Assembly: GCA_002688155.1 (NCBI GenBank) | Contig: NZCH01000029.1 | Location: forward strand, 1-45,188 | From: Phycisphaerae bacterium | GTDB lineage: Bacteria; Planctomycetota; Phycisphaerae; Phycisphaerales; Phycisphaeraceae | DNA length: 45,188 nt | Reading direction: 5' to 3' | In this document: positions 32,021 through 38,694 of the stretch, piece by piece | Layout of the letters: the number at the start of each line of letters is the position of its first letter | Numbering within the stretch: the stretch's first letter is position 1 | Made by a program: the position numbers and the translations under genes | The notes under the pieces: generated by a model | Database searches by the model: none | What the model was told of the DNA's origin: nothing | What the model saw: the letters and a program-made list of their open reading frames with translations, nothing else

Positions 32021-32365
32021 TCACGCCTGGAACGAACTGCCGCATCCGCACGTGCTGGTCGCGTTGGGGTTGCTGAACACAAACCCGCGGCCCATGACCT
32101 CGTCCTTAAAGTCGATCGTTGTGCCGTTGAGATACAGATACGATTTGGGATCGCAGATCACGGAAAGTCCGTCCTTGTCGAACGCCTCGTCGTTGTCGTT
32201 GACGTTTTCCGTCAGGTCGAGGATGTACGAGAACCCCGAACATCCCCCGCCCTTGACACCCACGCGCAGGCGCACGTTTTGCGGTTCAAGATTTCCGTCC
32301 TGGGATTGCTGATCGATGATCGTCTTGATCTCGCGAATGGCGGTTTCTGTCAGTTCGATGGCCAT
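32021..32365 (-). CDS. A-type Fe-S carrier (IscA/ErpA/HesB family)
   Basis: A 114-residue A-type carrier that accepts Fe-S clusters from the IscU scaffold and passes them to apoproteins. The three Cys are in VGVKGGGCSGFSYIL (first) and STCGCGSSF (second and third). Start: ATG 32365 with AGGAG close upstream. It is the last Fe-S gene in the run iscR-iscS-iscU-this gene; a 112-bp gap separates it from iscU. Whether it corresponds to IscA or ErpA cannot be told from sequence alone. Confidence 0.94.
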   Translation of the reverse strand: MAIELTETAIREIKTIIDQQSQDGNLEPQNVRLRVGVKGGGCSGFSYILDLTENVNDNDEAFDKDGLSVICDPKSYLYLNGTTIDFKDEVMGRGFVFSNPNATSTCGCGSSFQA

Positions 32366-32477
32366 GATGGGCTCCTGTGGGAAACACGTGATCGGTGGAC
32401 ATTGTACGTGTCGTGCTGGTGACGACCGCAGCGTACGCAGGCGGCGGTCGTGGATGCCTTTACGATCGTCCAGACGA

Positions 32478-32897
32478 TCAGTTGGCTGCAGCCGCGGCGG
32501 GCTGGTTAACTTGCTGGTCCTGTTTTTTCTTGTAGTCGGCGATCGCGGCCTTGATCGCGTCCTCCGCGAGGACCGAACAGTGTATCTTCACCGGCGGCAG
32601 GCTCAACTCCTGCACGATCTGGGTGTTCTTGATCGCCTCAGCCTCTTCGACGGTCCTGCCTTTCATCCATTCGGTCGCCAGCGAGGACGACGCGATGGCC
32701 GACCCGCAGCCGAAGGTCTTGAACTTGGTGTCTTCGATGACGCCGGTCTGCGGGTTGACCTTGATCTGCAGTTTCATCACGTCACCGCATTCTGGCGCGC
32801 CCACGATGCCTGTTCCGACGTCGGGCGCATCCTTGTCCAGGTTCCCCACGTTGCGCGGGTGTTCGTAATGTTCGATGACTTTTTCGCTGTATGCCAT
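32478..32897 (-). CDS. iscU: Fe-S cluster assembly scaffold IscU
   Basis: IscU is the scaffold on which 2Fe-2S clusters are built from sulfur supplied by IscS. The 139-residue protein has YSEKVIEHYEHPRNVG, the Cys positions GAPECGDVM and KTFGCGSAIASSS, and the chaperone-binding LPPVKIHCS with the third Cys. A Gln/Ala-rich tail ends it. Start: ATG 32897 with AAGGAG eight bases upstream. It lies 79 bases after iscS. hscA, hscB and fdx are absent from the cluster. Confidence 0.96.
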   Translation of the reverse strand: MAYSEKVIEHYEHPRNVGNLDKDAPDVGTGIVGAPECGDVMKLQIKVNPQTGVIEDTKFKTFGCGSAIASSSLATEWMKGRTVEEAEAIKNTQIVQELSLPPVKIHCSVLAEDAIKAAIADYKKKQDQQVNQPAAAAAN

Positions 32898-32976
32898 GAT
32901 CGCGGCTCCTTAATGTTGATTGCAATCAGTCAGTCTTTTGTCGGAACAGTCATCAGTCGCGGCAGGCGCTGCGCCA

Positions 32977-34197
32977 TCAATGCGCCGCCCACTCAACCTT
33001 GGACAGGTCGACGCCTTCCAGCACCATGTCGTAAAGCGGGCTCATCATCAAAAGGTGCTGTGCCGCGTGGATGACCTTGTCCACGACGTAGTCGACTTCC
33101 TCCTCGGTGTTGAACCGGCCCAGGCCGAACCGGATCGAACTGTGCGCCAGTTCGTCGCTGGCGCCCAGCGCCTTGAGTATGTACGAAGGTTCGAGCGACG
33201 CGGATGTACATGCCGAGCCTGACGACAGTGCAATGTCCTTGAGCGCCATCAGCAGCGACTCGCCTTCAACGTAGGGGAAACTGAGGTTCGCGGTGTGCGG
33301 CAGCCGGCGGGTCGGATGGCCGTTGAGCACGGCGGTCTCGACTTGGCCGGTGATGCCGTTGACCAGCTTGTGGCTCAGGCCCGCGAGTCGAATCGCCTCG
33401 TTGGCCATTTCGTTGTTGCAGATTTCGGCCGCGGCGCCCATGCCGACAATGCCCGGCACATTGAGCGTGCCCGACCGCATGCCGCGCTCGTGGCCGCCGC
33501 CTTCCATGATCGGTTCGAGCCTCACGCGTGGCCTGCGCCGCCGTACGTACAGCACGCCCACGCCTTTGGGGCCGTACATCTTGTGCGCTGACGCGGACAG
33601 CAGGTCGATTCCCGCCTCGTTTACGTCCGCCGGCATCTTGCCCACGTACTGCGTCGCGTCTGTATGAAAGATGACGCCTTTTTCCCTGCAGACCTTACCG
33701 ATTTCGGGCACTTCGTTGATCGTGCCGATCTCGTTGTTGGCCCACATGATCGTGACGAGGATCGTGTCGTCGCGTATCGCCTCGGCGATCTGCTGAGCGT
33801 ACACGATGCCGTAGCCGTCCGGCTCGAGCCACGTCACGTCGTAGCCTAGCTTCGCAAGCCGCTTGCATGGGTCGATCACGGCCTTGTGCTCCATCGTGGA
33901 CGTGATGATGTGCCTGCCTTTTTCCGCGTACATGTGCGCGGCACCCTTGATCGCCAGGTTGTTCGATTCCGTGGCCCCGCCAGTCCAGAGGATCTCTTTC
34001 GGATCGGCGCCAATCAGCGCACCGAACTGCCGGCGTGCGTTGTTCACGGCGCCCTCCGCCTCCCAGCCGAAGCTGTGGTTACGGCTCGCCGCGTTACCGA
34101 ACTTCTCGGTGAAGTAAGGCAGCATCTGTTCGAGCACACGCGGATCCACGCGCGTTGTCGCGTTGTTATCCATGTAAATCGGTATTTCAACTGCCAT
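32977..34197 (-). CDS. iscS: Cysteine desulfurase IscS (NifS-like)
   Basis: A PLP-dependent cysteine desulfurase, giving persulfide sulfur to IscU and other acceptors. Seen: YMDNNATTRVDPRVLE, GGATESNNLAIKGAA, the PLP Lys in LSASAHKMYGPKGVGVLYVR, and the mobile active-site loop SSGSACTSASLEPSY carrying the catalytic Cys. Length about 406 residues, typical of IscS. The start is ATG 34197, six bases after the GAGGA that overlaps the first ATG (34203). It overlaps the end of the Rrf2/iscR gene by 11 bases, so the two are translated from one message. Confidence 0.96.
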   Translation of the reverse strand: MAVEIPIYMDNNATTRVDPRVLEQMLPYFTEKFGNAASRNHSFGWEAEGAVNNARRQFGALIGADPKEILWTGGATESNNLAIKGAAHMYAEKGRHIITSTMEHKAVIDPCKRLAKLGYDVTWLEPDGYGIVYAQQIAEAIRDDTILVTIMWANNEIGTINEVPEIGKVCREKGVIFHTDATQYVGKMPADVNEAGIDLLSASAHKMYGPKGVGVLYVRRRRPRVRLEPIMEGGGHERGMRSGTLNVPGIVGMGAAAEICNNEMANEAIRLAGLSHKLVNGITGQVETAVLNGHPTRRLPHTANLSFPYVEGESLLMALKDIALSSGSACTSASLEPSYILKALGASDELAHSSIRFGLGRFNTEEEVDYVVDKVIHAAQHLLMMSPLYDMVLEGVDLSKVEWAAH

Positions 34198-34699
34198 AAA
34201 CATTCCTCTGATCTAAGCGCGAATCGCCCCATTTCCCTTCGATCCCGATACTGACCAGCGAAGGTGCCTGGCCACCACCGAGCGCAAAATCCGCGAGGGT
34301 GACCTCGCGCAGGAAGTCCACCAGCCGCTGATTGAGCTGGCGAATTGGCTGGTGAACCGGACAGACCTGCGCGATCTCGCAGCCAACCTCAGCGATGGCC
34401 GTGTCGTCGACGCAGCACGGCGCCAACCGCGCCGGTCCCTCGATGGCATCGACCACGTCCAACAACGTCACTTCCGATGGGTCGGCTAAGAGCTGGTAGC
34501 CGCCATGCGCCCCACGCGTCGAGTCGATGACGCCGCAGTGGGCCAGGTCCTTGAGGATGTTCATCAGCAGGGGGACAGGCAGTTTGAGCTGCTCAGCGAT
34601 TTGCCGGGCGCTGACCACCGGCTGGCCCGCGAGCCGCTGCTGGCCCAGGTACGCAAGGGCAACGAGTGCGTAATCCGTTTTGCGTGAGAAACTCAGCAT
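34187..34699 (-). CDS. iscR: Rrf2-family regulator, IscR-like
   Basis: An Rrf2 winged-helix regulator of 170 residues: MLSFSRKTDYALVALAYLG, the recognition helix region VSARQIAEQLKLPVPLLMNIL, and the wing DSTRGAHGGYQL. Cysteines at 95/96, 107 and 113 (APCC, VGCEIAQVCPVH) could hold an Fe-S cluster as C92, C98 and C104 do in E. coli IscR, though the spacing is wider. It leads the isc operon, and an inverted repeat lies in its own promoter, consistent with feedback control of Fe-S assembly. Start: ATG 34699 with AAGGA four bases upstream. Confidence 0.92.
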   Translation of the reverse strand: MLSFSRKTDYALVALAYLGQQRLAGQPVVSARQIAEQLKLPVPLLMNILKDLAHCGVIDSTRGAHGGYQLLADPSEVTLLDVVDAIEGPARLAPCCVDDTAIAEVGCEIAQVCPVHQPIRQLNQRLVDFLREVTLADFALGGGQAPSLVSIGIEGKWGDSRLDQRNVYGS

Positions 34700-36252: not shown

Positions 36253-36831
36253 TCAACAGATGACTGACGTCGCTTCCTCGACCGCTTCGATGACCTGTCG
36301 CACATGGAACGGCTTCTTCAGGTAACCGGCGAAGCCCTGGTGCAATAGCTGCTGTGCCTGACCGTCGGTGAGCTTGCCGCTCATCGAGATGACCTTGCAC
36401 AGCTGCAGGTCCGGATTGTCACGTACGAGTTTCAGTACCGCCTCACCGTTCACGTCGCCCAGGTGCATGTCGAGCAGCATCACATGAGGCCGAAACTTCT
36501 CGCATTCCACACCGGCTTCAAAACCGGAGTGCGCGATGACGACCTCATAACTGGCCTGTTCCACCAGTACCTTTTCGAGCACCTCGACGATCTCCGCTTC
36601 ATCGTCGACGATCAGCACGCGCGTCTGCCCGCTCTGCAGTCCATCGAGCGGAATCTGATGCGCTTTCATGAAACGAATCAGGGAGTTGAGCGGGATTCGC
36701 CGGTCCTTGGAACCGGGGATTCGGTACCCGCGAAGCTGACCCGAATCGAACCATTTGCTGACGGTCCGAGGCGCAACATTGCAAATTTTGGACACCTCAC
36801 CGGTGGTCAATATGTCCTTGTGTCTCGCCAT
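36253..36831 (-). CDS. Response regulator with N-terminal excisionase-type HTH and C-terminal receiver
   Basis: A 192-residue regulator in reversed order. Residues 1-65 form a MerR/excisionase-type helix-turn-helix (ILTTGEVSKICNVAPRTVSKWF, GYRIPGSKDRRIPLN, quoted in parts). Residues 70-192 are a CheY-like receiver with DD at 76-77, phospho-acceptor D121 in MLLDMHLGD, and K173 in LKKPF. Phosphorylation by an unknown histidine kinase should change DNA binding. Start: ATG 36831 with AAGGTGA upstream; the track start is 67 codons too early. I recall this architecture as frequent in planctomycetes. No histidine kinase is adjacent. A strong terminator follows. Confidence 0.88.
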   Translation of the reverse strand: MARHKDILTTGEVSKICNVAPRTVSKWFDSGQLRGYRIPGSKDRRIPLNSLIRFMKAHQIPLDGLQSGQTRVLIVDDEAEIVEVLEKVLVEQASYEVVIAHSGFEAGVECEKFRPHVMLLDMHLGDVNGEAVLKLVRDNPDLQLCKVISMSGKLTDGQAQQLLHQGFAGYLKKPFHVRQVIEAVEEATSVIC

Positions 36832-37000
36832 AATTCTGATCACCTTTCTCCAGAATCCTCCGAACTGTCCGGTTGCGCACCTTCCGACTTGAGATTCATC
36901 GGACAATCCCACGGCCGGATTAACCGGCGCGATCCGAAAAATGAGCGCGCGGATCACACGAAAGTCCCTTGCCGCGCGTGTGACACTTCGTTTTTGTTTG

Positions 37001-37270
37001 TTATTGGAAACAATCGAGACTGGGTGCACCACCCGACACCGGCGGAATCAGCGCGAGTTCATCGCCATCGCTTAAGACATGGTCCGATTTGATGTACGTA
37101 CAGTTCACGGCAAGCGCTGTTTTTTTGAAAAGGCCCGCTAATTCCGGGTGTTTTCCCGTCAGCACGGTAACCGCGTCACCGGCGGTCGCGCCTCGGTGTA
37201 ACTCCAATGGAACTGCGTCGGCGCCAATTTGCTGCTTGAGCGTCGCGAACAGGTGGACATGGATCGTCAT
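37001..37270 (-). CDS. moaD: MoaD-type sulfur-carrier protein with C-terminal extension
   Basis: An 89-residue ubiquitin-fold protein: MTIHVHLFATLKQQIGAD, then LSDGDELALIPPVSGG, which is the MoaD C-terminus. In molybdopterin synthase the last Gly of the diglycine is adenylated and thiocarboxylated, so it must be terminal. Here GG (80-81) is followed by APSLDCFQ before the stop, and the reading was checked base by base. The tail would have to be removed by a protease, as for some JAMM-processed carriers, or the protein has another role. It starts 22 bases after moeA on the same strand. Start ATG 37270; a slightly longer form from 37300 is possible. Confidence 0.85.
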   Translation of the reverse strand: MTIHVHLFATLKQQIGADAVPLELHRGATAGDAVTVLTGKHPELAGLFKKTALAVNCTYIKSDHVLSDGDELALIPPVSGGAPSLDCFQ

Positions 37271-37292: not shown

Positions 37293-38561
37293 TCAAACAA
37301 CCATTGTCATGTACGGTACGCGGGTTCCCGCAGCAACGTGCTGATCGGTGACCGGCAGTCGCACAAAGCCGTCAGCCTTGTCGGTGTGCATCAGGTCACC
37401 GCTACCGTGCCAGTCGATGATATGCGCCCTTAAGTCGTCATCGAGCGTTGCGGCACGGAAAAGTTGTCGTGCGGGGCTCGCTTTCACGTCGGCTGCGAGT
37501 TCAACACGACGCCACCGCAGTGAACCCGTTGCCGGTGATATGCCGAGCATTTGTCCAATCACGGGCACAAGGAAGAGATGCGCCGTCGCCAGCACACTTA
37601 CAGGGTTGCCGGGCAACCCGACGATCAGTGTGACGTCGTCGCCTTCAGGCGTCTGTACAACGAGCAGCGGCTTGCCGGGTTGAATCGCGACGCCGTGGAG
37701 GATGGTTGTCATGCCCAGCGCTTGCCAGGCGCTTGCCCAAAGGTCGTGACTGCCGACACTGACACCGCCGACAGTGACGATCAAGTCGGATTCTGACAGT
37801 GCTTTGGCCGCATGATAGATTGTCAATTCCTTGTCGTCCGGTACGTGCACATGGCACGATACGGGCGCACCTATCGCGCCCATCATCGCCACAAGAGCTG
37901 GACCGTTCGAGTTGCGAATCTGTTGCCTGCCTAGTTCGTGCGTCGGCGTCGTGCTCGGGCGCACCTCGTCGCCACTGGTGAGTAGTGAAATACGCGGGAA
38001 GCGCGATACCGTTAACTCTGTTGCACCGACCGTGGCCGCGATGCTCAGATGATGCGGCGCCAGTTTGATGCCCGGCTCGAGCACGACCTGGCCAGACCGC
38101 GCGTCGACGCCCTGGGGGTGGATGTGCAGCCATGTTTTAACGTGCTCGATCTTGAATTGCACGTGCGGCGGATCGACCGACTCGTCGACGACCGCTTTTT
38201 CGATTGGAATAACCGCGTCTGCGCCCGGTGGCAGCGGAGCCCCCGTGGCGATGCGCACAACTTTGCCGGTCGACAACGGGCACTGCCAATCCTCTTGCGG
38301 CGCACCGGCGAGGATCGTTCCCGCGATCGGGATCGGCCGGCCCGGTGTGATATCCCCGGTGCGGACCGCGAAGCCGTCCATCGTCGCGCGGTCGAATGCC
38401 GGTTGATCGCGATCCGCGCGCACTGGAGCGCGCAGCACCCGTCCCAGGGCGTCTTTTTGGCTGACGATTTCGACCCCGGCGGTCCTCGTGCTCGCGAAGA
38501 TCCGCTCGAGTGCCTCCTCGTACGTCGGAAGTGCGCGCTTGCTGGGGATGTGAGCACCCAT
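37293..38561 (-). CDS. moeA: Molybdopterin molybdenumtransferase MoeA
   Basis: MoeA inserts molybdate into adenylated molybdopterin. The 422-residue protein has LGRVLRAPVRADRDQPAFDRATMDGFAV (quoted in part), ATGAPLPPGADAVIPIE, the domain-III motifs LTSGDEV and VGGVSVGSHD, and GLPGNPVSVLATAHLF. Domain IV ends it. Start: ATG 38561 (the track's TTG is six codons earlier). It is followed by moaD in a two-gene unit; moaA, moaC, moaE and mogA are elsewhere. A molybdoenzyme should be encoded in this genome, none in the window. Confidence 0.94.
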   Translation of the reverse strand: MGAHIPSKRALPTYEEALERIFASTRTAGVEIVSQKDALGRVLRAPVRADRDQPAFDRATMDGFAVRTGDITPGRPIPIAGTILAGAPQEDWQCPLSTGKVVRIATGAPLPPGADAVIPIEKAVVDESVDPPHVQFKIEHVKTWLHIHPQGVDARSGQVVLEPGIKLAPHHLSIAATVGATELTVSRFPRISLLTSGDEVRPSTTPTHELGRQQIRNSNGPALVAMMGAIGAPVSCHVHVPDDKELTIYHAAKALSESDLIVTVGGVSVGSHDLWASAWQALGMTTILHGVAIQPGKPLLVVQTPEGDDVTLIVGLPGNPVSVLATAHLFLVPVIGQMLGISPATGSLRWRRVELAADVKASPARQLFRAATLDDDLRAHIIDWHGSGDLMHTDKADGFVRLPVTDQHVAAGTRVPYMTMVV

Positions 38562-38694
38562 GGATTGCTTTGGCGTCAATTTGAGCAGGCTGGCTTATGC
38601 GGAACTTGCGCGATCCGCAGCCACCGCTTTCGCCGACAGTTTAACGCACATATGCACGCTTCGACGATATTCTTCTCGCGTGTAGAGTTTCCAT

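Follow-up and report, generated by a model that had tools for sequence, protein, structure and literature searches.

The window analysed here, a stretch of 45,188 nucleotides from a Phycisphaerae bacterium (contig NZCH01000029.1), contains a moaD gene whose product extends eight residues (APSLDCFQ) beyond the diglycine. MoaD is the small subunit of molybdopterin synthase, a little sulfur carrier required for molybdenum-cofactor synthesis. The tail is real in the assembly. On balance, we favour the view that this is an ordinary syntenic MoaD of its family which has undergone a lineage-specific stop loss, and that the resulting precursor is trimmed after Gly81, probably by a JAMM protease. If the tail is trimmed, a simple stop loss would have turned this MoaD into a natural precursor, and the co-occurrence of tails with JAMM would offer a plain test of whether JAMM proteases mature bacterial sulfur carriers in general, and not only in fusions or in siderophore pathways. 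If it stays in place, one lineage would have lost the function, which would be of little wider interest.

The moaD gene and its tail

The moaD coding sequence (37004..37270, minus strand) has 89 codons, with the start codon ATG at 37270 and the stop codon TAA at 37001-37003. The diglycine is encoded by GGT GGT (37028..37033, minus strand), which corresponds to residues 80-81 of the translation. The core of the 89-residue translation ends DELALIPPVSGG; in the ORF the residues VSGG are followed by APSLDCFQ and the stop. The preliminary description of a MoaD with eight residues beyond the diglycine is therefore borne out, with APSLDCFQ and then TAA on the minus strand. According to the translation and a comparison with the loci of relatives, the eight-codon tail (37004..37027, minus strand) lies where the relatives have spacer. 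The frame is open further 5', with alternative starts at ATG 37276 or TTG 37300.

The protein matches the ThiS/MoaD beta-grasp domain profile PF02597 above the cut-off (E=1.5e-14) and has a TIGR01682 (moaD) score of 65.3 bits, which is 0.85 bit short of the cut-off of 66.15. These two profiles and the translation indicate a full-length MoaD domain with an intact core and no frameshift. As encoded, the GG is internal rather than C-terminal, with APSLDCFQ beyond it. A MoaE domain is absent from the polypeptide, and the ORF stops 8 residues past GG.

MoaD C-termini among relatives

The order-level search for MoaD covered 151 genomes, namely the source genome and 150 others from its family and its order, and gave matches in 86 of them. 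All 87 MoaD matches from this search were read at the C-terminus, which is GG or GGG in 84. The three exceptions are the MoaD of the window, that of genome G023 from the same family, which has three extra residues (RSD), and a fusion of MoaD to ThiF in genome G075. The fused MoaD-like domain of G075 (L167 / L171) lies beside JAMM and cysteine synthase genes. At 82 of 85 loci checked (85 of the 87 matches), the GG codons are followed immediately by a stop (TGA 62, TAA 13, TAG 7), and a tail after GG is not conserved in the orthologues among the 87 matches. The preliminary description had named GG with an immediate stop in relatives as the result that would speak against its interpretation, and this is what was found for nearly all relatives of the order. 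Since nearly all of them stop at GG, the tail is best read as a stop loss confined to one lineage and not as a conserved design of the QbsE kind.

Short tails also occur elsewhere. A contig search, which shares some genomes with the order-level search, returned 80 MoaD relatives, mostly MoaD-MoaE fusions. Among the stand-alone MoaDs in this set, seven have tails of 2-6 residues, and six of these loci adjoin moaE, the exception being L003 (genome G023). An in-frame start codon of moaE lies inside or at the end of moaD in L017, L018, L024, L031 and L044, and in L059 no start codon was met on reading back from the match. The phylum contributes five more tailed MoaDs (VA, IR, LA, AR, AHG), each with moaE closely downstream; these genomes were chosen for open frames past GG before their JAMM content was known. 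Altogether, 11 of the 12 tailed stand-alone MoaDs adjoin or overlap moaE, with tails of 2-6 residues (L017, L018, L024, L031, L044, L059, L194-L197 and L199). G023 is the exception, and the moaD of the window is a second case away from moaE. Overlap with moaE was rejected as the cause of the window's tail, since moaE is on another contig.

Neighbourhood and origin of the tail

The moaD gene is immediately preceded by moeA (molybdopterin molybdotransferase-like; 37293..38579, minus strand), as supported by profile matches and conserved adjacency. Downstream is a gene for a protein with HTH_17 and response-regulator receiver domains (36253..36832, minus strand, ATG 36832), assigned by Pfam and synteny. 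The order moeA-moaD-response regulator is conserved across the family. A regulator start at GTG 37032, giving a 259-aa frame, is unlikely because relatives align from ATG 36832. The response regulator (36253-36832) is 76-86% identical in most family members, compared with about 45-52% for moeA. Further along the minus strand (32021-34699), an Rrf2 regulator (Pfam) is followed by ORFs whose translations look like IscS, IscU and an IscA-type protein; together they may form a cluster for sulfur supply.

The spacer between the moaD stop and the regulator start (36833..37000, minus strand) was aligned with the spacers from the other loci, 25 in all. A patch consisting of TTAAnC, GATG and then GGAGAAAG ahead of the ATG is conserved in most of the 25 loci, and is perhaps the promoter and ribosome-binding site of the response regulator. 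GG and the regulator ATG lie 196 nt apart in the window and 194-201 nt apart, the commonest length, in nine relatives; others range from 173 to 781 nt. Since this distance is typical of relatives, there has been no insertion and the tail sits in former spacer. Judging by synteny and spacer length, the most likely origin of the tail is that the stop codon was lost and the frame read on into what had been spacer. The stop codon after GG would have mutated to a sense codon, so that translation would now run eight codons into the former spacer and end at TAA.

An AATAACA string occurs about 17-26 nt past GG in four relatives of one genus, near the end point of the tail. The alignment program left these strings unaligned, and their likeness to the tail end is weak and suggestive only. 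When stop loss is simulated, 19 of 82 relatives reach a stop within seven further codons, with a median of 20; therefore, the length of eight codons carries no signal and is what chance gives after stop loss.

Proposed maturation of the precursor

The terminal Gly of MoaD is adenylated by MoeB and converted to a thiocarboxylate. A peptide past GG would leave no free terminal Gly for MoeB; therefore, the precursor would need a cut after Gly81 in order to work with the stand-alone MoaE. The gene lies in a Moco context, with moeA adjacent, MoaE encoded as a separate gene on contig C37 and molybdoenzymes on contigs C9 and C16 of the source genome. Since MoaE and the molybdoenzymes are kept, a working MoaD is expected, and we infer that trimming after Gly81 takes place. 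The preliminary description had suggested proteolytic maturation of the QbsE type. The need for maturation is supported by the retained MoaE and molybdoenzymes, the intact core and the published fusions cut after GG; its QbsE-like, conserved form is not supported.

The likeliest cutter would be a JAMM/Prok-JAB metalloprotease, whose gene presumably lies in the genome half that the assembly lacks. Such a JAMM may have made the stop loss tolerable. Genome G023 (same family, tail RSD), which has the only other tailed MoaD away from moaE, encodes an orphan JAMM (L181:2974-3477) with a complete HSH-x7-S-x2-D motif; inspection of its surroundings by eye, out to about 3 kb, showed no ThiF, CysO or cysteine synthase. 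The rarity of JAMM in the order and its absence from the 52% complete source assembly count against the explanation. Using PF14464 and the G023 JAMM as queries, no JAMM was found in this assembly; since the bin holds 52% of the genome and ThiF/MoeB is likewise not seen in it, the missing JAMM is uninformative.

Alternatively, the tail may be left untrimmed, with MoaD inactive or decaying and the sulfur for MoaE coming from ThiS or from a second MoaD outside the assembly. The lineage-specific tail and the lack of a detected JAMM fit this explanation. So does the ThiS beside thiG, which ends GGG and is the sole other ThiS/MoaD-family match in the assembly; no second MoaD ending in GG was found in this 52% complete assembly. 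However, the core keeps the family motif DELALIPPVSGG without a frameshift, MoaE and the molybdoenzymes are kept in the genome, and at least two changes in the former stop suggest that this is probably no brand-new lesion. An untrimmed MoaD that is inactive or decaying is rather unlikely.

Co-occurrence of tails and JAMM

A strong JAMM was defined as a match of at least 50 bits, a line set after the first results were seen. It is present in all 12 genomes with a tailed stand-alone MoaD, in 27 of 29 MoaD-MoaE fusion genomes, and in 21 of 64 sampled GG-ending genomes (6/14 of the first set and 15/50 of a phylum sample, whose controls were hand-picked by a stop count that placed the stop near GG and not by reading sequences). 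For tailed versus GG-ending genomes, Fisher's test gives p=1.1e-5 overall and 6e-4 within the phylum, which are rough values since the genomes are related and several are incomplete. The earlier proposal of JAMM as the protease gains indirect support from this co-occurrence and not from the source genome, where none was seen in the assembled 52%. Within the order, JAMM is rare and reaches at least 50 bits in only four genomes with a MoaD ending at GG. In five of the order's genomes, four with a GG-ending MoaD and one with a fusion, and likewise in several tailed genomes, it lies beside genes recognised by eye as CysO/ThiF or cysteine-synthase-like. Shared ancestry and the history of fusion and fission confound the association, as 11 of the 12 tailed MoaDs adjoin moaE, unlike that of the window. 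More tentatively, there may be a scattered class of processed carriers, in which the stop codon is under weaker selection wherever the genome has a JAMM, and tails recur through moaE overlap or through stop loss into spacer.

The tail could instead be trimmed by a housekeeping protease. The rarity of JAMM in the order and its absence from the 52% complete source assembly are consistent with this, as is the fact that the enzyme cutting MoaX was not identified in the study of that protein (PMC4326299). However, MoaX is processed incorrectly in E. coli (PMC4326299) and a MoaD fusion gave no degraded fragments in E. coli (PMC3906898), so general proteases seem not to do the trimming. Since tailed MoaDs also co-occur with JAMM, a housekeeping protease is improbable.

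Accuracy of the sequence and assembly

A single-edit scan covered all substitutions and 1-nt indels between 60 nt ahead of the start of the GG codons and 12 nt past it. No substitution or 1-nt indel in this stretch makes the ORF end at the MoaD diglycine, and the sole GG endings are upstream frameshifts which end SDGG. The codon after GG is GCA, which is at least two changes away from any stop codon. A single-base error in the scanned stretch is therefore rejected as the source of the tail, which speaks against the sequencing error raised in the preliminary description. A chimeric contig or misjoin is unlikely, since the moeA-moaD-regulator order and the spacer length are as in relatives. An artefact in an incomplete metagenome bin (52% complete, 132 contigs), with a true moaD that stops after GG as in nearly all relatives, is very improbable given the result of the scan and the spacer length and gene order, which run on normally across the site.

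Comparison with known systems

In MoaX of M. tuberculosis, a cut between Gly82 and Ser83 is required, and the protein is incorrectly processed in E. coli (PMC4326299). A JAMM of D. radiodurans cleaves a MoaD-MoaE fusion (PMC8832034), a role that a 2006 survey had proposed for JAB domains (PMC1779556). Like MoaX (Mycobacterium tuberculosis) and DR2607 (Deinococcus radiodurans), the MoaD of the window has an internal GG which would be freed by a cut after the second Gly, and JAMM is the cutter in the Deinococcus fusion. Unlike these proteins, in which the extension is a whole MoaE domain, the extension here is eight residues of former spacer and MoaE is separate on another contig.

QbsE, the sulfur carrier of thioquinolobactin matured by the JAMM protein QbsD, shares with the window's MoaD a short peptide past GG for which removal by JAMM is proposed. 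QbsE belongs to a siderophore pathway with the JAMM in its operon, whereas the window's moaD sits between moeA and a response-regulator gene, its surroundings hold no JAMM, and the tail is not conserved. CysO carries nascent cysteine on its C-terminal Gly. The CysO / Mec+ system, which pairs a ThiS/MoaD-fold carrier with a JAMM and is present in the genomes of some relatives, resembles the present case in its carrier; it differs in that the window's MoaD belongs to a Moco context that includes neither cysteine synthase nor JAMM. As in canonical MoaD (TIGR01682), the domain is full-length with PPVSGG, and the gene is beside moeA in the synteny of its family; unlike canonical MoaD, its GG is not C-terminal as encoded.
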